A DNA stretch of 64,000 nt, taken from positions 31,190,545-31,254,544 of the forward strand of contig NC_088790.1 of assembly GCF_949628265.1 (NCBI RefSeq), in the 5' to 3' direction. The notes under the pieces are model-generated. The model saw only the letters and a list, made by a program, of their open reading frames with translations. It searched no databases and was not told the origin of the DNA. The DNA is from Cloeon dipterum. Its lineage: Eukaryota; Arthropoda; Insecta; Ephemeroptera; Baetidae. Shown here in pieces: positions 1 to 61,005 of the stretch. How positions within the stretch are numbered: position 1 is the stretch's first letter; each line of letters begins with the position of its first letter. Position numbers and translations under genes: made by a program.

Positions 1-464
1 TAAACGGCTGCGGGCGTCTCCCTTTCTGCAGCACTCAGCATGTACAAAGCACGCGCGCCCGCGCGCACAGCTGAATTTGCAAATCCAGCATCTTGCAAAT
101 CACCCAGCATAATACGATCCCTGCGCGCGTTCTGTTTCCGCATACACGCCGAGATTTATTCGCGAGCCTGCAATTAACATGGGGAGACAAGAACTTTTGC
201 AGCGTGCGGCCAGGATTATGAATATACCAAAGTGTGCGCGCCAGCTTTACATTCGGATTCGAAAAGCCGGCTTCGAGTGAGTGGATCCCTTCTCCTGCAA
301 ATCCACTGCTCAAATAAAGAAATAAACCTGCAGCGTTTCCTTGTTCAATTGAAATTTACGAAAAAAGACCCTTGATGACCTTTGGTGTTTGACCAGAGGA
401 ATTGACCAGGATTTGCCAAATAAAAAAAAAACATGACATTTATCGATTTTTAGGGTTCTTTGCA
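1..464. other. Non-coding; GC-richer block 1-330
   Basis: No exon with splice sites and coding character is seen on either strand. The first 330 bases are clearly GC- and CpG-richer than what follows and resemble the islands listed further on; the rest is AT-rich filler leading into a palindromic repeat array. Confidence 0.4.
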
Positions 465-1395
465 GCTCCAAATCTCGAGTTCTAACCGTTAGAATTGCAA
501 AAATTATCCACCGTTAGACTCGTCTTAACCTCCACTTACTAGCTAAAGTGTTTAGAGGGTGCTTACCACCATCCCCTTTTAACCCCATTGCTACAATTTT
601 TTGTAAAAAATATTTTGGCATTCTTAAAAAAATTATTTTTTCTCAACTCCTTCTAAATTACCACCCTGTTCCTTATTTCAAAACCAAAGCAGAAATTTAT
701 TTTTAAATTTAATGCAAATTAATTCGAAAATCGAGATTTATAAAAAATATTTCACTTTCACAAGGGGGTTGATGAAGTGTAGCAACTTAGGGGTGGACGG
801 TAAGAGCTTCTAAACCCTTCGGCTGGTCAGGGGTGGTTGAGACGTGTCCAACGGTGGACAGTTTTTGCTATTCCAATGGTTAGAACTCGAGATTTTCAGT
901 TGCAAAAATATCAAAAAATTGAAAATTGTCTATTTTTTCGTGTTTTTGCGTTTTTTGCACCTCCAAATCTCGGGTTCTAAGCATTAGAATTGCCAAAACT
1001 ACCCACCGTTATGCTCGTCTTCATTTTTAATAATCAGCTAGAGAATTTACGGGGTGCTTACTCCCATCCCCTTTCAACCCCATCGCTACAATTTCAGTAA
1101 AAAAAATTGGAATGCTTAAAAAATTTAAAATTTCCAAAACTCCTTCTAAATTACCCCCTTGTCCATTCTCTCAAAACAAAAAGAGAAAAATATTTCTAAA
1201 TTAATAAAAAAATCCAGAATAAAAAAATATTAAATTTTATTTTTTCTGGGGGGTTGATGAAGTTTAGCAACTTAGGGGTGGAATGCAAGCATGTCTAAAC
1301 CCTTCAGCTGGTCAGGGGAGGTCGAGATAAGTGCAACGGTGGGTAGTTTTTGAAATTCTGATGATTAGAACCCGGGATTTGGACAAAATTTGAAA
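465..1395. repeat. Palindromic repeat array, family D (2 units)
   Basis: Forward arms that start like CCAAATCTCGGGTTCTAA (near 470 and 960) alternate with reverse-complement arms that end like TTAGAACCCGAGATTTGG (near 890 and 1380). Between the arms lie the conserved stretches with GGGTTTAGGGGGTGCT and its complement. The two units are spaced about 490 bp, longer than the units in the other arrays of this family at 6.6, 8.4 and 12.2 kb. Confidence 0.85.
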
Positions 1396-1489
1396 AATTC
1401 CTATTTTTAGAGTTCTTGATTTGTTTGGTTGAGTGACTGATCAATGGTGTGATTAATTAAAGCACAAATTTATTTCAATACCGAATTCA

Positions 1490-1503
1490 TTTTATTTTAT
1501 TTC
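1490..1503 (-). terminator. Poly(A) signals of the lectin-OBP gene
   Basis: On the minus strand two overlapping AATAAA hexamers lie 50-65 bases after the stop codon of the lectin-OBP gene, the expected place for the cleavage and polyadenylation signal. Confidence 0.6.
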
Positions 1504-1552
1504 CCCGCCACGCAAAGCCATCAGCCAAAACCAAGAAAAAGCAAGAAAACGT

Positions 1553-4500
1553 CTACTTTTGAGCCTCATTGGGATCGACGTAGGATTCGCAGTAGAAGTA
1601 ATTGACCCTGGTGTCGAACATGTGGCTGAACATGAGCGTGGTCAGCTTGTACAGAGGTTTGCCGCCGCGTCGCGTGTACAAGAACGATCTTTCGTGAGAA
1701 AGACTGAAGTTATCGGCCGTCATGTCGACGTGCAGTTTCGCGTCGTTCCGGCACCAACGCTCGCCCTCCGGATTCGAGAAGGTTTCGCCGTAGTAATTGT
1801 CAACCGCCGAACCTATGTTTAATATTAAAACAGATGGAAATCATAGTTTTGTAATAATTATACCGTTGATCGAGTCGTAGAGTTTTTTGAATTCGTCAAA
1901 GGTCGTCGTAATCGGCAGGTACATATTCAGGGCGCAGCATGATCTGTACGCGTATTCATACGTCTAAAATTTAAATTAAATTTGAATCCAAATGAAATTT
2001 TAAATTAAATCGTACGTGATTCAAAGCCCACTCAGATTTGTACCACAGTTTGCCATCCCATCCAGTAAATGCTGTACCACCGAAAGATGCTGAAATATCA
2101 AGGTTTTTAATTTTTTTTTAAAGTTTGATTTTTTTCGCATTTTTTTAAAATTAAATTAAAATTTCCCTTAGTAAATTCTGCTAGAGAATTATAAGTTTGG
2201 CCCGTTAATTGGTGAATCGACCGTTAGATGGCAACAAATGTAACAAAATACGCGGGAATGAAATTATAAGGTCGGCACGCCTCTTTTTGGACGCTTCTGA
2301 TTGGCCGCTGGACTGTCTCCTGATTGGCCACCATTTTTTCGACGCCATTTTGACTTCTGACCGGCGGGAACAAACACAGATCGCAACCAGGCCTCCCGGT
2401 GGGAATTGCGACTGCGCAGAAGGTTTTAAATTGGGTCACGCATGCGCAGTGATTAGTTTCAGCTTCTCTATGATATGAAAAAGCGATCTGAACTTACTGC
2501 GCACGCTTAAGATGCACATACGTTTACTGCGCAGCTTCGAAATGGGGGAATATTCAAACAATTATAAATTTCGACGCCATATTGACTTCTGACTGGCGGG
2601 AATCAACACAGATCGCAAATTAAATTATTAACTAATTCAATTTAAATAAAATAAGGAGCCCTTTCCTTTTTTTAGAGAAAAATTCTTAGAAAACTGTAAT
2701 TATTCAACCCTTTTCAAACCCCTACAAAATAAATCCTTAAAAAATCAACAATTTACTGGCGTTTTTTGTGTAGAATTCGTTCATCATGGTCCGCTACAAA
2801 GCATCAATCAAGAATTATGTGATGATCATCAAAATTTATCTAATATCTAGGCCATAAATACGTTTTGTCTGCAGTCCACATTCTGGTTCATGTTGCAAAT
2901 GCGCGGCACCTCGATTTTCACAGGCGGATAAACCTGCGTGTGTTTGGATTATTAGTGAGCACGCAGCAGCCGAGTGCCATTTGGCCAATTACATAACCAT
3001 CGATGCGGAACTTGTACACAACCACTTTGCCGAAAACCACTGGGGCCTCGCGCTTACCGCACATGTACATTCGATACGCGCTTTCGCAGTCGTCGTTCTC
3101 CACTGAAATCAAAAAGCGACAAGCGATCGTCCATTTCAAATCAACACACAATTTACAAGGGATTTTCAACGATTTTTAATAAGAAAAAAATGCTCAACTT
3201 TTAATAACTGAATTTTAGACTATTGCTGATTTTTTTCTGAAGTAAATGGGCTTTTGAGTGAAACCTTTTGCCCATATTTTTAATTTTTTAAGACATAAAA
3301 TCGATATTAATCAAATTAAATTAAATTATAAAAATGATTTTTTGGATTTAATTTTACCTCGCTCGCTTTTGCACTTCTGGATGGCATCGTAACCCCTTTG
3401 CATGTCGCTCTTTTCGTTCGAGCTCTCCATGAGTTTAAGCACATTGCCCTCTTGCAACGTGTTGTTAACAATCTGAATTTTGTTTTTAAGTATTGAAATA
3501 TTTTAATTCAGTAAATAATGTTCACCATTCCAAGATTATCTCCCAAACACTTGACGTAACACTGAAATTTTTATTCACAAATTAATAACAAGAAATCTTT
3601 CCTCAAAATCAGCGGGGTCCAGATTCGTGCGACGCGCAGATATGCCGTCCGGTGGAGTTTGGCGCGAAAAAAGGTCACGTGAAAAAGTTTTGGTCAATAT
3701 TGTGACGCATAATTTGCATTACTCTAAACTAATTGTGTCTTTTGGATCGTAAAAACAAACTCCTGACACTCGTACGGCAATTTTGCTTCCCACATTCAGA
3801 TGCCATCTTGGATCTGCGCAGTGCAAACCAATTTTATTGCACATCTGGACCCCGCTGCTCAAAATAATACGAAAATTATTACTTTCATTCTGTAAGTGTA
3901 ATTTTCCGGAACATCCAATGCATAGACCTCCTCTGTGTCATAATTTATTAATAATTTAAGTAAATTTAAAATAAAAAAGTCCAACCGAGAGAGAGGACCA
4001 TCAACTCCGCACACTCCTTCTGCACGGCTTCGACGCTCGTTCCAGATTGACGAACCTCAGATTAAAAATATGAAGTGAAAATTTTTAAAAATAATAATAA
4101 CTTTACCTCGCAGGCGTACTGCATTTGGTCAGTGCATTTTGCAACGTGGAGAGTCGTGTTTTGCGGATGAATTGCACTGGTTTTGACATAAACGCAGTCG
4201 CCTTTAGTCACCATCGGTTCGCCAGGGCCCCAATTAATTTCCTTTCTCAAAAAGGCCCTGTCCACCGAGCACCAGCGGAAATTGTTGGGACACCCGAAGT
4301 CCGCCCCAGAAGTCCAGTAGTTGCCGATAATTTCCGGATAATCTGAGTTGTTTTATTTATTTAAAAAACGGTCCGGGGACATTAAAAAAAGCACCTCTTG
4401 CCAGTTTCGTGAGGCACTTCCTTTTCGCCTCAGTTTTAATCGCGAGCAGGCGGGTGTTCAAGGCGCAACACTTGTCACGAGCTTCGAAATACGTTGCCTT

Positions 4501-5511
4501 TGTGAACAAATGTATTGTAAAAATCATGTTGCAGCGCTGGATAGAAAACAACAATCGCGCACCTTTTCCTTCGAAAACAGGAAGTAGCGCCCGCATTTTG
4601 AAACCCAGCGGCCATGTTTGTAGCGATCTGACGGAATTTTCAGTAAAATAACCAGCCGTCGAAACGCAAACGCAATATTTCACCTTTCAGCTCAAACTGT
4701 TCTCCCAAACCTGGCTTGAAAAATGTCGTCTGCAAGATTTTATTTAGTAAAATTTCTTAAATTAAATCAAAAATTGAATTATTAACGTTTCTGACGCATT
4801 CCTTGTTTATGCACTTTGCCCTGCAATTTTTGCTTCCCTGAAAATGACGAAAAATTAAATTTAAAAAAAAAATCAACGGATTAAATCTTACAACAAGGTC
4901 GATTGTTGTCTTCTCGACCGATTCGCACATGAGATTGTACGTGTTCTCGGGCTTCCAGTTGGTGAGCAGCGTGCTGTAGTCGAAGCTGAGCTGGATGGCC
5001 GTGTCCTCGAACTTGCTCTCGTCGTTGCTGATCTCCGTGATCAAACTGTCGTCGATTGGCTCGGGGCTGTCCTTGGAGCACCACGACCACATGTTGTTCA
5101 GCTCGTGCTTGAAGCCGCCAGACCAGTACGCAGTGTTCGGCGGAACGATTGCTGCAGATTGTTTCCTTTAGTTTAATTTATTTCTAAAAAAAGAGGGTAA
5201 AACATTGTAGTTTTGAAGCCAGGCACTGCGACTCGTCCATGTTGTCGACAATCACGGGCTGCATCCCAATTGCACAGCACGTTTGCCAGTTTTCATCCCA
5301 ATCTTTCTGCGTTTTTTTTATTTAGGATATTTTAAAAAAAATGTAGGAAAAAGGAAATTGTACCAAAGGGGAGCCGATCAGGTAGGTTTTACCGCAGGCC
5401 TCGACGAACTGTCCATAAGAGCTGGGATCTAATTTATTTTTAAAGCAGAAAGTCTTACATATCTGATTTGGATTTACTTGAAATTTTTCCGGTTGTGTCT
5501 AGAAACGTGGA
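1553..5511 (-). CDS. Multidomain C-type lectin/OBP fusion protein
   Basis: Eighteen exons, 5' to 3': 5511-5478, 5428-5364, 5306-5204, 5151-4892, 4837-4787, 4729-4684, 4568-4395, 4342-4107, 4055-3986, 3932-3883, 3561-3526, 3472-3358, 3102-2993, 2933-2862, 2793-2757, 2089-2016, 1963-1864, 1812-1553. They join in one frame (1893 nt) to give 630 residues plus stop. Numbering from the first residue seen, CTLD1 spans about 23-143, CTLD2 199-322, an OBP domain 338-428 and CTLD3 about 463-619. Each CTLD carries a CC pair in its first helix (TCCAIGM, KCCALNT, SCCALNM), so the three look like internal duplicates. OBP cysteines are 338, 364, 368, 409, 419 and 428, with spacings 25-3-40-9-8, the classical pattern. 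CTLD2 has GEP...GDC where sugar binders have EPN, so calcium-dependent sugar binding is doubtful. Many introns are only 40-70 bp; larger ones carry repeats. The N-terminus and signal peptide are not fixed. Role inferred: secreted recognition or ligand carrier. Confidence 0.82.
2190..2630. mobile_element. Family C element in lectin-OBP intron
   Basis: A dispersed repeat recognised by ACCGTTAGATGGCA, CACGCATGCGCAGTGA and GGTTGCGATCTGTGTT-like segments, also found at 22.8, 26.8, 33.4, 33.6 and 35.0 kb. This copy sits in the 667-bp intron between 2757 and 2089. No open reading frame or clear terminal repeats were seen, so it is non-autonomous and its class is unknown. Confidence 0.8.
3610..3857. 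mobile_element. hAT-type MITE, copy 1
   Basis: A 248-bp element with terminal inverted repeats CAGCGGGGTCCAGAT and a perfect 8-bp target duplication CTCAAAAT on both sides. An 8-bp duplication with CAG-starting termini is the hallmark of hAT transposons. It is non-coding and lies in the intron between the exons at 3883 and 3561 of the lectin-OBP gene. Confidence 0.9.
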
Positions 5512-6589
5512 CTGTGGGATTTTAAAACTGTGTTAATTATTAAATTAAGATATAAAAGAATAAATTTTAACTTTTATCCATACTCAATGTTTGAAGAATC
5601 CAAAATATTTTTACATTTGTCTGATTAACTTAAAGGCGTGAGGTGAACAGAATATATGCAATTTTTACACCTTTGAGCTACACTCTAAATGATTTAAAAT
5701 AAATTTATGGTTTATAAAATGATTTAATCGCTTCTAATGCCAGAAAAATAAATTTAAAATGCAAAAAAAATCATTTTAACAAAAATAAAAATTTTTTAAT
5801 CTGTGATATTTTAAAATTGTTTGTTGAAAATTTACGCTTAAAGCTATAAATTCAGTAAAAAATCAGAAAAATCGTCTATTATTGGTTTTTTTTGGTGGAA
5901 AAAATAAAAATAATATTTTCTTTAAAAGCCCCCTTGCGATGGACTTTTGTGAACGCTTTGAAGTTTGAAAACTCTTGTCGGTAATGATCCAAACATGCAA
6001 TATTTAGAGTTATAAACAAAAAAAATTCAATTACAAAGTGGCGAAAATTGTTTAAAATAAAGGTGCCTTTCAGAAAAATAATTTAATGATCAATTGCTAT
6101 AAAAATTGGAGTGTCTGCGTGGTGGTTAGTAGTTTAAGTAGATATCTAATAACACAACAAAACTTTAATTTTAGCTTTCCATAATTACTGAAAATTGAAA
6201 ACTCCTAGGTAGATAATAAACAATAACTTAAAACGGGACATTTTCACTGATTTGTCAATATTACCAAAAATATGATAATCTCTAATTGTAAGCTAAATTT
6301 AATTCAATTTTTGTCATTTATGAACGTGGCAAAAATAATTTAAACCCTTAAAAATATTCAATAAAGTTATTTAATCTAACTGGAAATTTTACTCTTTAAT
6401 TGTTAAAAAAAATCAAATGTCTAATTCAGTTTTTTAATCCGTTTAAAATAAAAATACTCATATTTAAAATGTTATTTGACATTTTGCGTCTTACGCAAGC
6501 CAAAATTTTCATCAAAATAATAGCGTTTCTCTTCGAATTTGAATCAAATTATAAATTATTACGTTAAAATGTCAAATTTTCAAAGGTTT
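5512..6589. other. AT-rich stretch, probable intron
   Basis: Very AT-rich sequence with stops in all frames. It would be the start of a roughly 2.2-kb intron if the lectin-OBP gene begins with the exons near 7.8 kb. No coding exon or conserved block is seen. Confidence 0.4.
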
Positions 6590-7265
6590 GCTATTCCAAA
6601 TCTCGAGTTCTAATTATCAGAATTGCATAAATTACGCGTCTTGACCTCTCCTGATTAGCCAAAGGGTTTTGGGAGTGCTTTCCTTCCACCACAATTGCCA
6701 TAAATGTTGCAATACCCATTCAAAAAATGATCACAAGTAATTTTAATGAAAATTTTGGCGCTGGGGTTGAAAAGGGGGGAGAGTAAGCACCTCTTACACC
6801 CTTCAGCTGCTCAGAGGACGTTGAGATAAGTCTAACAGTGGGTAGTTTTTGCAATTCTGATCGTTAGAACCCGAGATTTGGAGTTTTAAATGTTGGAAAA
6901 ATCACGAATTTATCGATTTTTTCGTTTTTATCTTTTGCAAACTCCAAATCTCGGGTTCTAGCCATCAGAATTGAAAAAACTAAGCACATTTAGACAAATC
7001 TCAACCCACCCTGACTAGCTGAAGAGTTTAGGGGCTGCTAACCATCCACCCTTTTCAACCCCTGCTAAAATTATGTTAGTAAAAATGTATTCAAAACCAT
7101 TTTCCTCATTTTTAAAAATATATTAGTGATTGGGGGTGGAATACAGACACCCGCTAAACCCTTCAGCTGGTATGGGGAGGTTAAGATGAGTCTGGTACTG
7201 GGTAGTTTTTGCAATTCTGATTGCTAGAACCCGAAATATGGAGTTGCAAAACACTAAAAAAATCA
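6590..7265. repeat. Palindromic repeat array, family D (2 units)
   Basis: Two units of forward arm followed by inverted arm; forward arms begin near 6592 and 6944 (period about 352 bp). Arms share CCAAATCTCGRGTTCTA, the TTAGGGGGTGCT-like core and their complements with the other arrays. Confidence 0.85.
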
Positions 7266-7666
7266 TTTTTAAGTGGAATTTTTATGAAACTACTACTCTA
7301 ACAATTTCAAACAATCTCAATCATATCATGAGTCAATTTTTAAAGTATGTAGCTGGAAATGTTGCTGTTGAATTATAGGAAATTGTCTAATTCAGTTTGG
7401 TAATTGGTTAAAAATGTTATTTAACATTTTTCGTCTCACGCACAGCAAAATTTTCTCTATGATTTTGAGGCAAAATATTAATTATTACGTTCGGATGGCA
7501 AGAATCGTAGCAGCTGAAGCCCTGAAAACGGAAGTGATGCTGACAGAATTTCCCAATTAATCAAATTCATACAGTATCGACGTCAGGAGTGGTTTCCAAA
7601 GTGACTATTTGTCATAGCAAAGTTTAACATTTCCCATTTAAATAAATATTTTAGAATATTCACGGT

Positions 7667-7838
7667 TGAACGGATCTCCCGTGATGGTTTGCACGGCCTT
7701 TTTCCTAGTCGTGGCAATCGGCTTGGTGGTCGACCGAGGTCTTCGAGTTGTAGTTCGTCTTCTGGTCGTGCCCGCACGCTGTACTTGCTTCTGCTTAGCC
7801 TTCGCTTTTGATTTCGACTGGGCATCGGTCGTCATAAT
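7667..7838 (-). CDS. Candidate basic Thr/Lys/Arg-rich exon
   Basis: After a possible acceptor (CTGCAG) at 7839 the frame reads MTTDAQSKSKAKAKQKQ and then a Thr/Arg/Lys-rich run with TTRRRTTTRRPRSTTKP, the kind of low-complexity linker common in secreted insect proteins. Joining it to the next lectin exon at 5511 needs a phase-0 donor; GCC|GTGCAA near 7690 or CAA|GTACAG near 7783 would do, while the GTGAAT near 7670 would be out of phase. It may be the N-terminal linker of the lectin-OBP protein, or an unrelated low-complexity frame. No transcript evidence is available. Confidence 0.35.
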
Positions 7839-7896
7839 CTGCAGTATTTCGGCCAGACTTATGAAAATTATTGCGTTTTAGTTTTACATAAAATAC

Positions 7897-7960
7897 GTGC
7901 CAGAAAAGTTGCGATGAGCGCTGCGAGGCCGATGAAATGGAGCCATGATCGGCACCGCAT
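7897..7960 (-). CDS. Candidate signal-peptide exon
   Basis: From the ATG at 7960 the frame gives 21 residues, a basic start (MRCRSW) followed by a hydrophobic stretch (LHFIGLAALIATFLA), typical of a secretion signal. A GTATTT donor follows at 7896. Its phase (1) does not match the frame of the Thr-rich exon at 7838, so the link is unresolved: a small exon may lie between, or this may be chance. Weak support only. Confidence 0.25.
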
Positions 7961-8439
7961 CTCTGACGCGATTGCCGCTTTTCAACTGCGAAAGCGATGC
8001 CACCAACGGAAGTGTTGCTTTCATCCGTCCGAGTTTCGTGTCAGAATCGGAAATTAACATCGCATGCAGGCGAATATTCAAAAGTCTGTTCTGTATTATG
8101 CGCTGTAGATTCAGATTTTTAATATTTTGTGATTGCAAATTAATTTCATTAGCGAAATGTACGTGGGAATCATTTTTCTGCGGTTCTAATGTCTGATACG
8201 TGAGTTAAATTAACATATTTATTTTCCAGAGTGTCAAAGGGAGAAAAAATTAAATTTTACAGTTTTAGAGTTTTCTGAAAAGACATTTAAAAAAATTCAC
8301 GGCTTTCTCTGTCTTGCTCGGCGCAAAATATGACTAAAGATGGAAATATGAATGCGGAAAACACAAAAATTGCGGCAAATATTGGTGATTCAAAATGATT
8401 TTCGATTAATTTGAAACATTTTGAAGCCCTGAAATTATA
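7961..8439. other. Possible promoter region, unassigned
   Basis: Moderately GC-rich up to about 8100 and then AT-rich. If the signal-peptide exon is real, its promoter should lie here. No clear TATA box or initiator could be singled out. Confidence 0.25.

Positions 8440-55545: not shown

Positions 55546-61005
<5,460 letters not shown>

Follow-up and report, generated by a model that had tools for sequence, protein, structure and literature searches.

An odorant-binding protein domain among C-type-lectin-like domains in the mayfly Cloeon dipterum: one probable gene and a probable large family

Classic insect odorant-binding proteins (OBPs) stand alone and are described as proteins of about 120–170 amino acids (PMC13205551). 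Does a locus of the mayfly Cloeon dipterum instead encode a polypeptide in which an OBP is one domain among C-type-lectin-like domains (CTLDs), and would such a protein be a single oddity? The question is raised by a stretch of 64,000 nucleotides of the C. dipterum genome (assembly GCF_949628265.1, contig NC_088790.1, positions 31,190,545–31,254,544; termed the window, whose own numbering is used below), near one end of which a lectin–lectin–OBP–lectin chimera was originally predicted. Exon joining and database models spanning the whole order support this chimera, and the sequence points almost certainly to a single C. dipterum gene encoding one polypeptide. In addition, C. dipterum very probably has a large family of lectin–OBP fusions.

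The minus strand of window positions 1–8000 was read and exons were joined at AG/GT borders. In agreement with the prediction, also in location, 18 exons have such borders and fit in all phases; they run from 5428 to 1553 and yield 617 residues and a stop codon with no internal stop. The domain order in the spliced protein is CTLD1–CTLD2–OBP–CTLD3. CTLD1 (5428–4892) is encoded by exons 5428–5364, 5306–5204 and 5151–4892, and is followed by a cysteine-bearing linker (4837–4684; exons 4837–4787 and 4729–4684, from exon joining) and by CTLD2 (4627–4107; exons 4627–4563, 4497–4395 and 4342–4107). The OBP domain (4055–2993), recognized by its Pfam match, a match to ASP5 and its six cysteines, comprises exons 4055–3986, 3932–3883, 3561–3526, 3472–3358 and 3102–2993. 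A second cysteine-bearing linker (2933–2757; exons 2933–2862 and 2793–2757, likewise from exon joining) leads to CTLD3 with the stop codon (2089–1553; exons 2089–2016, 1963–1864 and 1812–1553), which is placed by exon phases and a hidden Markov model (HMM) match to residues 598–719 of the database protein P0001. The predicted junctions at 4107/4055 and 2862/2793 recur as given in this joining.

A database protein search with the 617-residue protein gives four relatives in total, listed here with identity and coverage of the 617 residues: from C. dipterum P0001 (97%, 100%) and P0003 (50%, 98%), and from Neocloeon triangulifer P0002 (76%, 100%), an orthologue, and P0004 (51%, 75%). Both species belong to the Baetidae (Ephemeroptera), and annotated proteins of both span the whole lectin–OBP–lectin order, so that the order which the original prediction proposed to seek in related genomes is found in N. 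triangulifer database models. The second cysteine-bearing linker is present also in P0002, and is more diverged in P0003. The database entries are named 'uncharacterized protein LOC...' or 'C-type lectin domain-containing protein'.

The splice model might wrongly join two or three neighbouring genes, as exon joining from sequence alone can merge neighbours and the intron before CTLD3, at 667 nucleotides, holds short ATG frames. Against this stand the short distances between CTLD2 and OBP (51 nucleotides) and between OBP and the next linker exon (59 nucleotides), the identical order of the C. dipterum and N. triangulifer database models, and 96 single exons elsewhere that carry the CTLD–OBP junction (see below). 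On the single-exon junctions and the full-length database models, separate adjacent genes are rejected as exceedingly improbable. An assembly artefact is also rejected, as the database models agree, both those of a second species and those placed on different contigs of C. dipterum.

The gene begins further upstream than predicted. When P0001 (728 amino acids) was spliced onto the window with a purpose-written spliced aligner, 23 blocks from 7960 to 1556 were obtained, which moves the coding start from 5511 to approximately 7960. Within the predicted span the alignment adds one exon, a linker encoding STFLDTTGKIS (5511–5478), making 19 blocks there. The 617-residue frame was set with one placeholder base, on which residue 1 depends; in the fuller P0001 alignment this residue is N, not D. 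Beyond the span, the same alignment adds a first coding exon with a hydrophobic N-terminus, probably a signal peptide (7960–7888), an exon with a Thr/Arg/Lys-rich stretch (7804–7664) and two short exons, an N-terminal linker (7604–7573) and a linker encoding CYDSCHPN ahead of CTLD1 (7521–7489), all on the minus strand. The border between blocks 7960–7888 and 7804–7664 is approximate, as residues there differ from P0001. In P0001 the Thr/Arg/Lys-rich stretch (residues 22–92) has a predicted local distance difference test (pLDDT) score below 50 in the predicted model.

The OBP domain resembles classic insect OBPs such as LUSH and ASP5 (PF01395) in its six-cysteine frame and spacing, in helices that are predicted, and in matches to Pfam and to sequences of solved structures. 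The spacing in the spliced window protein is C-25-C-3-C-40-C-9-C-8-C, in agreement with the original prediction. Pfam PBP_GOBP (PF01395) matches with 44.5 bits (cut-off 22; E 1.9e-11), solved OBP ASP5 is matched in sequence at E 2.2e-5, and the OBP sequence profile matches solved ligand-binding OBPs including LUSH. Helices are predicted in structure models at residues 429–539 of P0001 and 298–416 of P0019. All six cysteines are retained in 36 of the 41 family OBP domains longer than 105 residues. The 36-nucleotide exon 3561–3526 encodes Cys2–Cys3, and the corresponding stretch is absent from five of the 41 database OBP domains; this reflects either an annotation slip or alternative splicing giving a four-cysteine form. 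The window gene aligns at full length with P0001, which has 728 amino acids and three CTLDs, and thus differs from a small stand-alone secreted protein; database proteins of the family reach 1088 amino acids.

The lectin side is less uniform. Of the two Pfam matches originally expected, PBP_GOBP is clear, whereas Lectin_C (PF00059) lies around its cut-off (22.6 bits) for CTLD2, with 21.1 bits in the whole protein and 25.8 bits for the domain alone, and CTLD1 and CTLD3 have no Pfam match. A fold search shows that CTLD1 and CTLD2 of the P0001 model match solved lectin folds. CTLD3 is assigned more tentatively, from its place in the chain, its match to an HMM built in this analysis and, by eye, a W-C ... 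Y-F-Y-C-E pattern; in P0001 it is modelled with pLDDT mostly 67–93, and is absent among the fold-search rows listed.

Proteins of the mannose-receptor group are receptors that sit in the membrane and contain CysR and FNII domains. Like the window protein, the mannose receptor, Endo180/uPARAP and PLA2R carry tandem CTLDs, and they are the top Foldseek rows for both models; unlike it, this group contains no OBP. Nor was a transmembrane segment of the mannose-receptor kind seen, as no hydrophobic window past the N-terminus was detected in the 10 relatives scanned. N-terminal hydrophobic windows are present in eight of these 10, in P0001 at the N-terminus only, and we infer that the relatives look secreted. 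A K-C-C motif (K-C-C-G where visible) is seen near the N-terminus of P0006, P0007, P0009, P0016, P0029 and P0062.

Double-domain OBPs join OBP to OBP, whereas the window protein joins OBP to CTLDs. As here, the double-domain OBPs of Nasonia and mosquitoes place an OBP inside a larger protein (PMC3428353; PMC3892079).

Is the chimera a single oddity? Searches of the C. dipterum genome argue strongly otherwise. An OBP-part query gave 33 matches, and a query with CTLD2 and the start of OBP gave 152, many of them running through the junction; all 15 loci spliced from these two queries have OBP behind a CTLD, and more CTLDs are recovered where the stretch is long enough. With a 91-residue junction query, for which the best 150 of 411 candidates were scored, at least 97 rows show 63–92% identity and no stop. 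Of these, 96 reach query residue 90 or 91, which means that the end of the lectin and the first OBP cysteine share one open exon. The large OBP exon that comes next, sought with a separate query of 40 residues, was matched in 100 rows, and it lies 251–1242 bp downstream on the same strand in 96 of the 97 junction rows.

By contig, the 97 rows fall on C1 (44), C4 (39), C5 (9) and C2 (5), and the junction exons are grouped with gaps below 60 kb, up to 22 per array, the largest at C4:33.58–33.82 Mb. Eight further rows reach residue 88–90, seven at C3:13.74–13.78 Mb and one at C5:13.18 Mb; two of these, when spliced (L038 and L039), give CTLD–CTLD–OBP and the start of another CTLD. The clade of the window gene, in which the junction is split by an intron, consists of six loci, all spliced: the window, two at C4:16.09 Mb and three at C3:8.76 Mb. 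Two more fusion loci lie at C4:31.08 and 31.18 Mb. The total is about 113 loci or more (97 + 8 + 6 + 2), with OBP exons shown in 106 (96 + 2 + 6 + 2); these are lower bounds, and the count covers loci whether active or not. Thus, the predicted chimera stands, but not as a lone protein, about 113 such loci having been found. Many members of the main clade have a further CTLD in front.

In 45 of the 150 junction rows the match ends at query residue 70–83; six of these are the window clade, and the other 39, among which there may be additional fusions, were left out of the fusion count. At C4:1557437, C3:1453023 and C3:1458187, lectin exons are followed 300–400 bp downstream by weak OBP-exon rows (E 0.13 to 1.3), and these loci are possibly further, more diverged fusions. 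At C4:29302902–29316031 there are three adjacent junction exons, two with equal score and identity, probably recent duplicates. A candidate stand-alone OBP at C3:3.6255 Mb (L001/L027) gave spliced alignments scoring 28–50, which were not used for intron comparison. A six-frame genome count of PF01395 is unusable, with one match at E 0.001 and four at E 10; the short length of the exons is the probable reason.

Across three protein searches, 59 C. dipterum proteins were obtained versus three of N. triangulifer (P0002, P0004 and P0044), which hints, within the limited sensitivity of the searches, that the main expansion is in the Cloeon line. A protein search beyond mayflies with alignment A3, in which the best 7992 word-sharing candidates were scored, gave six proteins, all of Cloeon or Neocloeon. 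In a tree of 59 OBP domains, which carries long-branch warnings, the window gene pairs with its N. triangulifer relative (100/100) within a 12-row clade (100/97) separate from the main clade.

The domains are conserved to different degrees. Mean pairwise identity in the CTLDs ahead of OBP, three in number, is 0.53 (34 domains), 0.56 (52) and 0.55 (52); it is 0.51 for OBP (41 domains) and 0.32 for the last CTLD (29 domains). All 16 spliced models have open frames. Ratios of nonsynonymous to synonymous substitution (dN/dS) were obtained by a simple Nei–Gojobori calculation on our own spliced models, in several of which the last CTLD is incomplete, and the values are rough: over whole alignments, eight of 10 pairs are finite at 0.10–0.62 and two are saturated. 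By domain, in five pairs of which three come from the same three window-clade loci, dN/dS is below 1 in all five for the CTLD before OBP (0.25–0.47) and for OBP (0.18–0.58), and for the last CTLD the main-clade pairs, of which there are two, give 0.81 and 1.00. This suggests a conserved CTLD–OBP core that would do the work shared by all members, and a last CTLD that would vary between them.

The conservation of OBP could also be that of a structural part. If OBP were a disulphide-braced spacer without a working pocket, the proteins would be adhesive or matrix lectins; OBP stands behind the same CTLD in the models inspected, and its fair conservation across paralogues is what such a part might show. 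We consider this improbable, given the six-cysteine frame with its LUSH-type match and the low OBP dN/dS in two pairs, although neither of these proves a pocket.

The published OBP repertoire of C. dipterum bears on where such proteins might act. The set of 191 OBP genes was the largest then described, 121 of 152 clustered OBPs fall in four nymphal or pre-nymphal clusters, gill expression is given for 82 of 167, OBP199, OBP219 and OBP260 are those stained in gills, and OBP expression is described in HRP-positive, nerve-like gill cells; 'lectin' is absent from the main text (Almudi et al., 2020; PMC7250882). The 191 OBPs would include the present loci, because many of these carry PF01395 and the authors' profiles are Pfam-based, and much of the 191-gene expansion may thus consist of lectin–OBP chimeras. 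A damselfly genome has four OBPs, and in its accessible text lectins are mentioned once, among immune genes (PMC5381652). The accessible text of a 2025 OBP review makes no mention of lectin, mayfl-, Ephemeroptera or fusion (PMC12495806). No description of a lectin–OBP fusion was found in searches of an open library of papers, which covers few subscription journals and no supplements.

A docked ligand carrier is tentatively proposed as the mechanism, at a likelihood slightly short of even. The protein would be secreted, and its CTLDs would anchor it to a surface or matrix that bears glycans or proteins. OBP, directly behind CTLD2, would capture a small hydrophobic ligand; the surface or partner met by each paralogue would be set by the last CTLD, which changes fast. 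The likely setting would be water-exposed tissues of the nymph (head and gill), where a free OBP would wash away. As a whole explanation, a single gene, a large family and a docked-carrier function together are somewhat more probable than not.

Several observations weigh against this proposal. A calcium-dependent sugar-binding C-type lectin is characterized by EPN or QPD, the latter being a galactose-type motif, together with WND, which completes the usual calcium site. All three motifs are missing from the window protein, and its sugar binding is therefore doubtful; its CTLD2 reads EPM where the N. triangulifer orthologue reads EPN. Across the family, by place relative to OBP, WND occurs in 0 of 34 CTLDs (−3), 0 of 52 (−2), 0 of 52 (−1) and 1 of 29 (+1). 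OBP structures are absent among the best 50 rows of each fold search, which lectin folds fill. The three window-clade pairs show no steady contrast between the last CTLD (0.39–0.87), OBP (0.20–0.58) and the CTLD before OBP (0.40–0.47). The link between the published OBPs of the gill and these chimeras is presumptive. In Parafronurus youi, another aquatic mayfly, a 2026 study gives 10 OBPs of 135–252 amino acids, a set of short proteins which tells against the idea that life in water by itself calls for such fusions; 'lectin' is absent from the main text, and the annotated protein set was curated, so that fusions could be missed (PMC13205551).

Family-wide motifs are partly different from those of the window protein. 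QPD is found in 48 of the 52 CTLDs two places before OBP, all but the four of the window clade, and EPN in four of the 52 just before OBP. Thus, sugar binding, at a calcium site of unusual make-up, is possible for one main-clade CTLD, and the CTLDs of the window protein may bind protein instead.

The QPD motif is also consistent with a soluble, opsonin-like immune protein of the haemolymph, gut or gill surface, in which lectins would bind microbes, OBP would bind microbial lipids or other small molecules, and varied arrays would serve many targets. The arrays of up to 22 junction exons, the fast-changing last CTLD and the multi-CTLD receptors as nearest folds fit such a role. However, fold likeness shows no function, and published OBP expression in nerve-like gill cells suggests sensing, if those OBPs are chimeras; an immune role is considered unlikely.

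Elsewhere in the window, three open frames on the minus strand at 57020–60405 match aconitase (PF00330; E 2.3e-19, 4.8e-39 and 5.7e-18) and are probably one ordinary intron-containing aconitase gene. By eye, a short element containing GGGTTCTAA and CAGAATTGCAAAAACTACCCA is seen repeatedly, at approximately 360–1450, downstream of the chimeric gene, and at 6600–7230, in its 2-kb intron; it is probably a dispersed repeat.

Overall, the structure and the family are firm as read from sequence, and the function is open to rival readings. It is possible, as a still more tentative proposal than the docked carrier, that the largest OBP expansion reported for an insect consists mainly of secreted lectin-docked OBPs, a novel class of recognition proteins in place of free odorant carriers, with about 100 paralogues that have a conserved ligand-carrying OBP core and a fast-changing terminal lectin, for lineage-specific chemical or microbial recognition in the aquatic nymph, gill included. 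OBP copy number serves arguments on smell, and the count of 191 has been taken as part of the evidence for chemosensing gills; if many of the 191 are fusions, the gill-sensing reading needs a second look. The proteins might then work in a docked state and not as free carriers, or in immunity and not in sensing, and an OBP domain would have been taken into another protein class, with about a hundredfold multiplication in a winged insect of an early branch.
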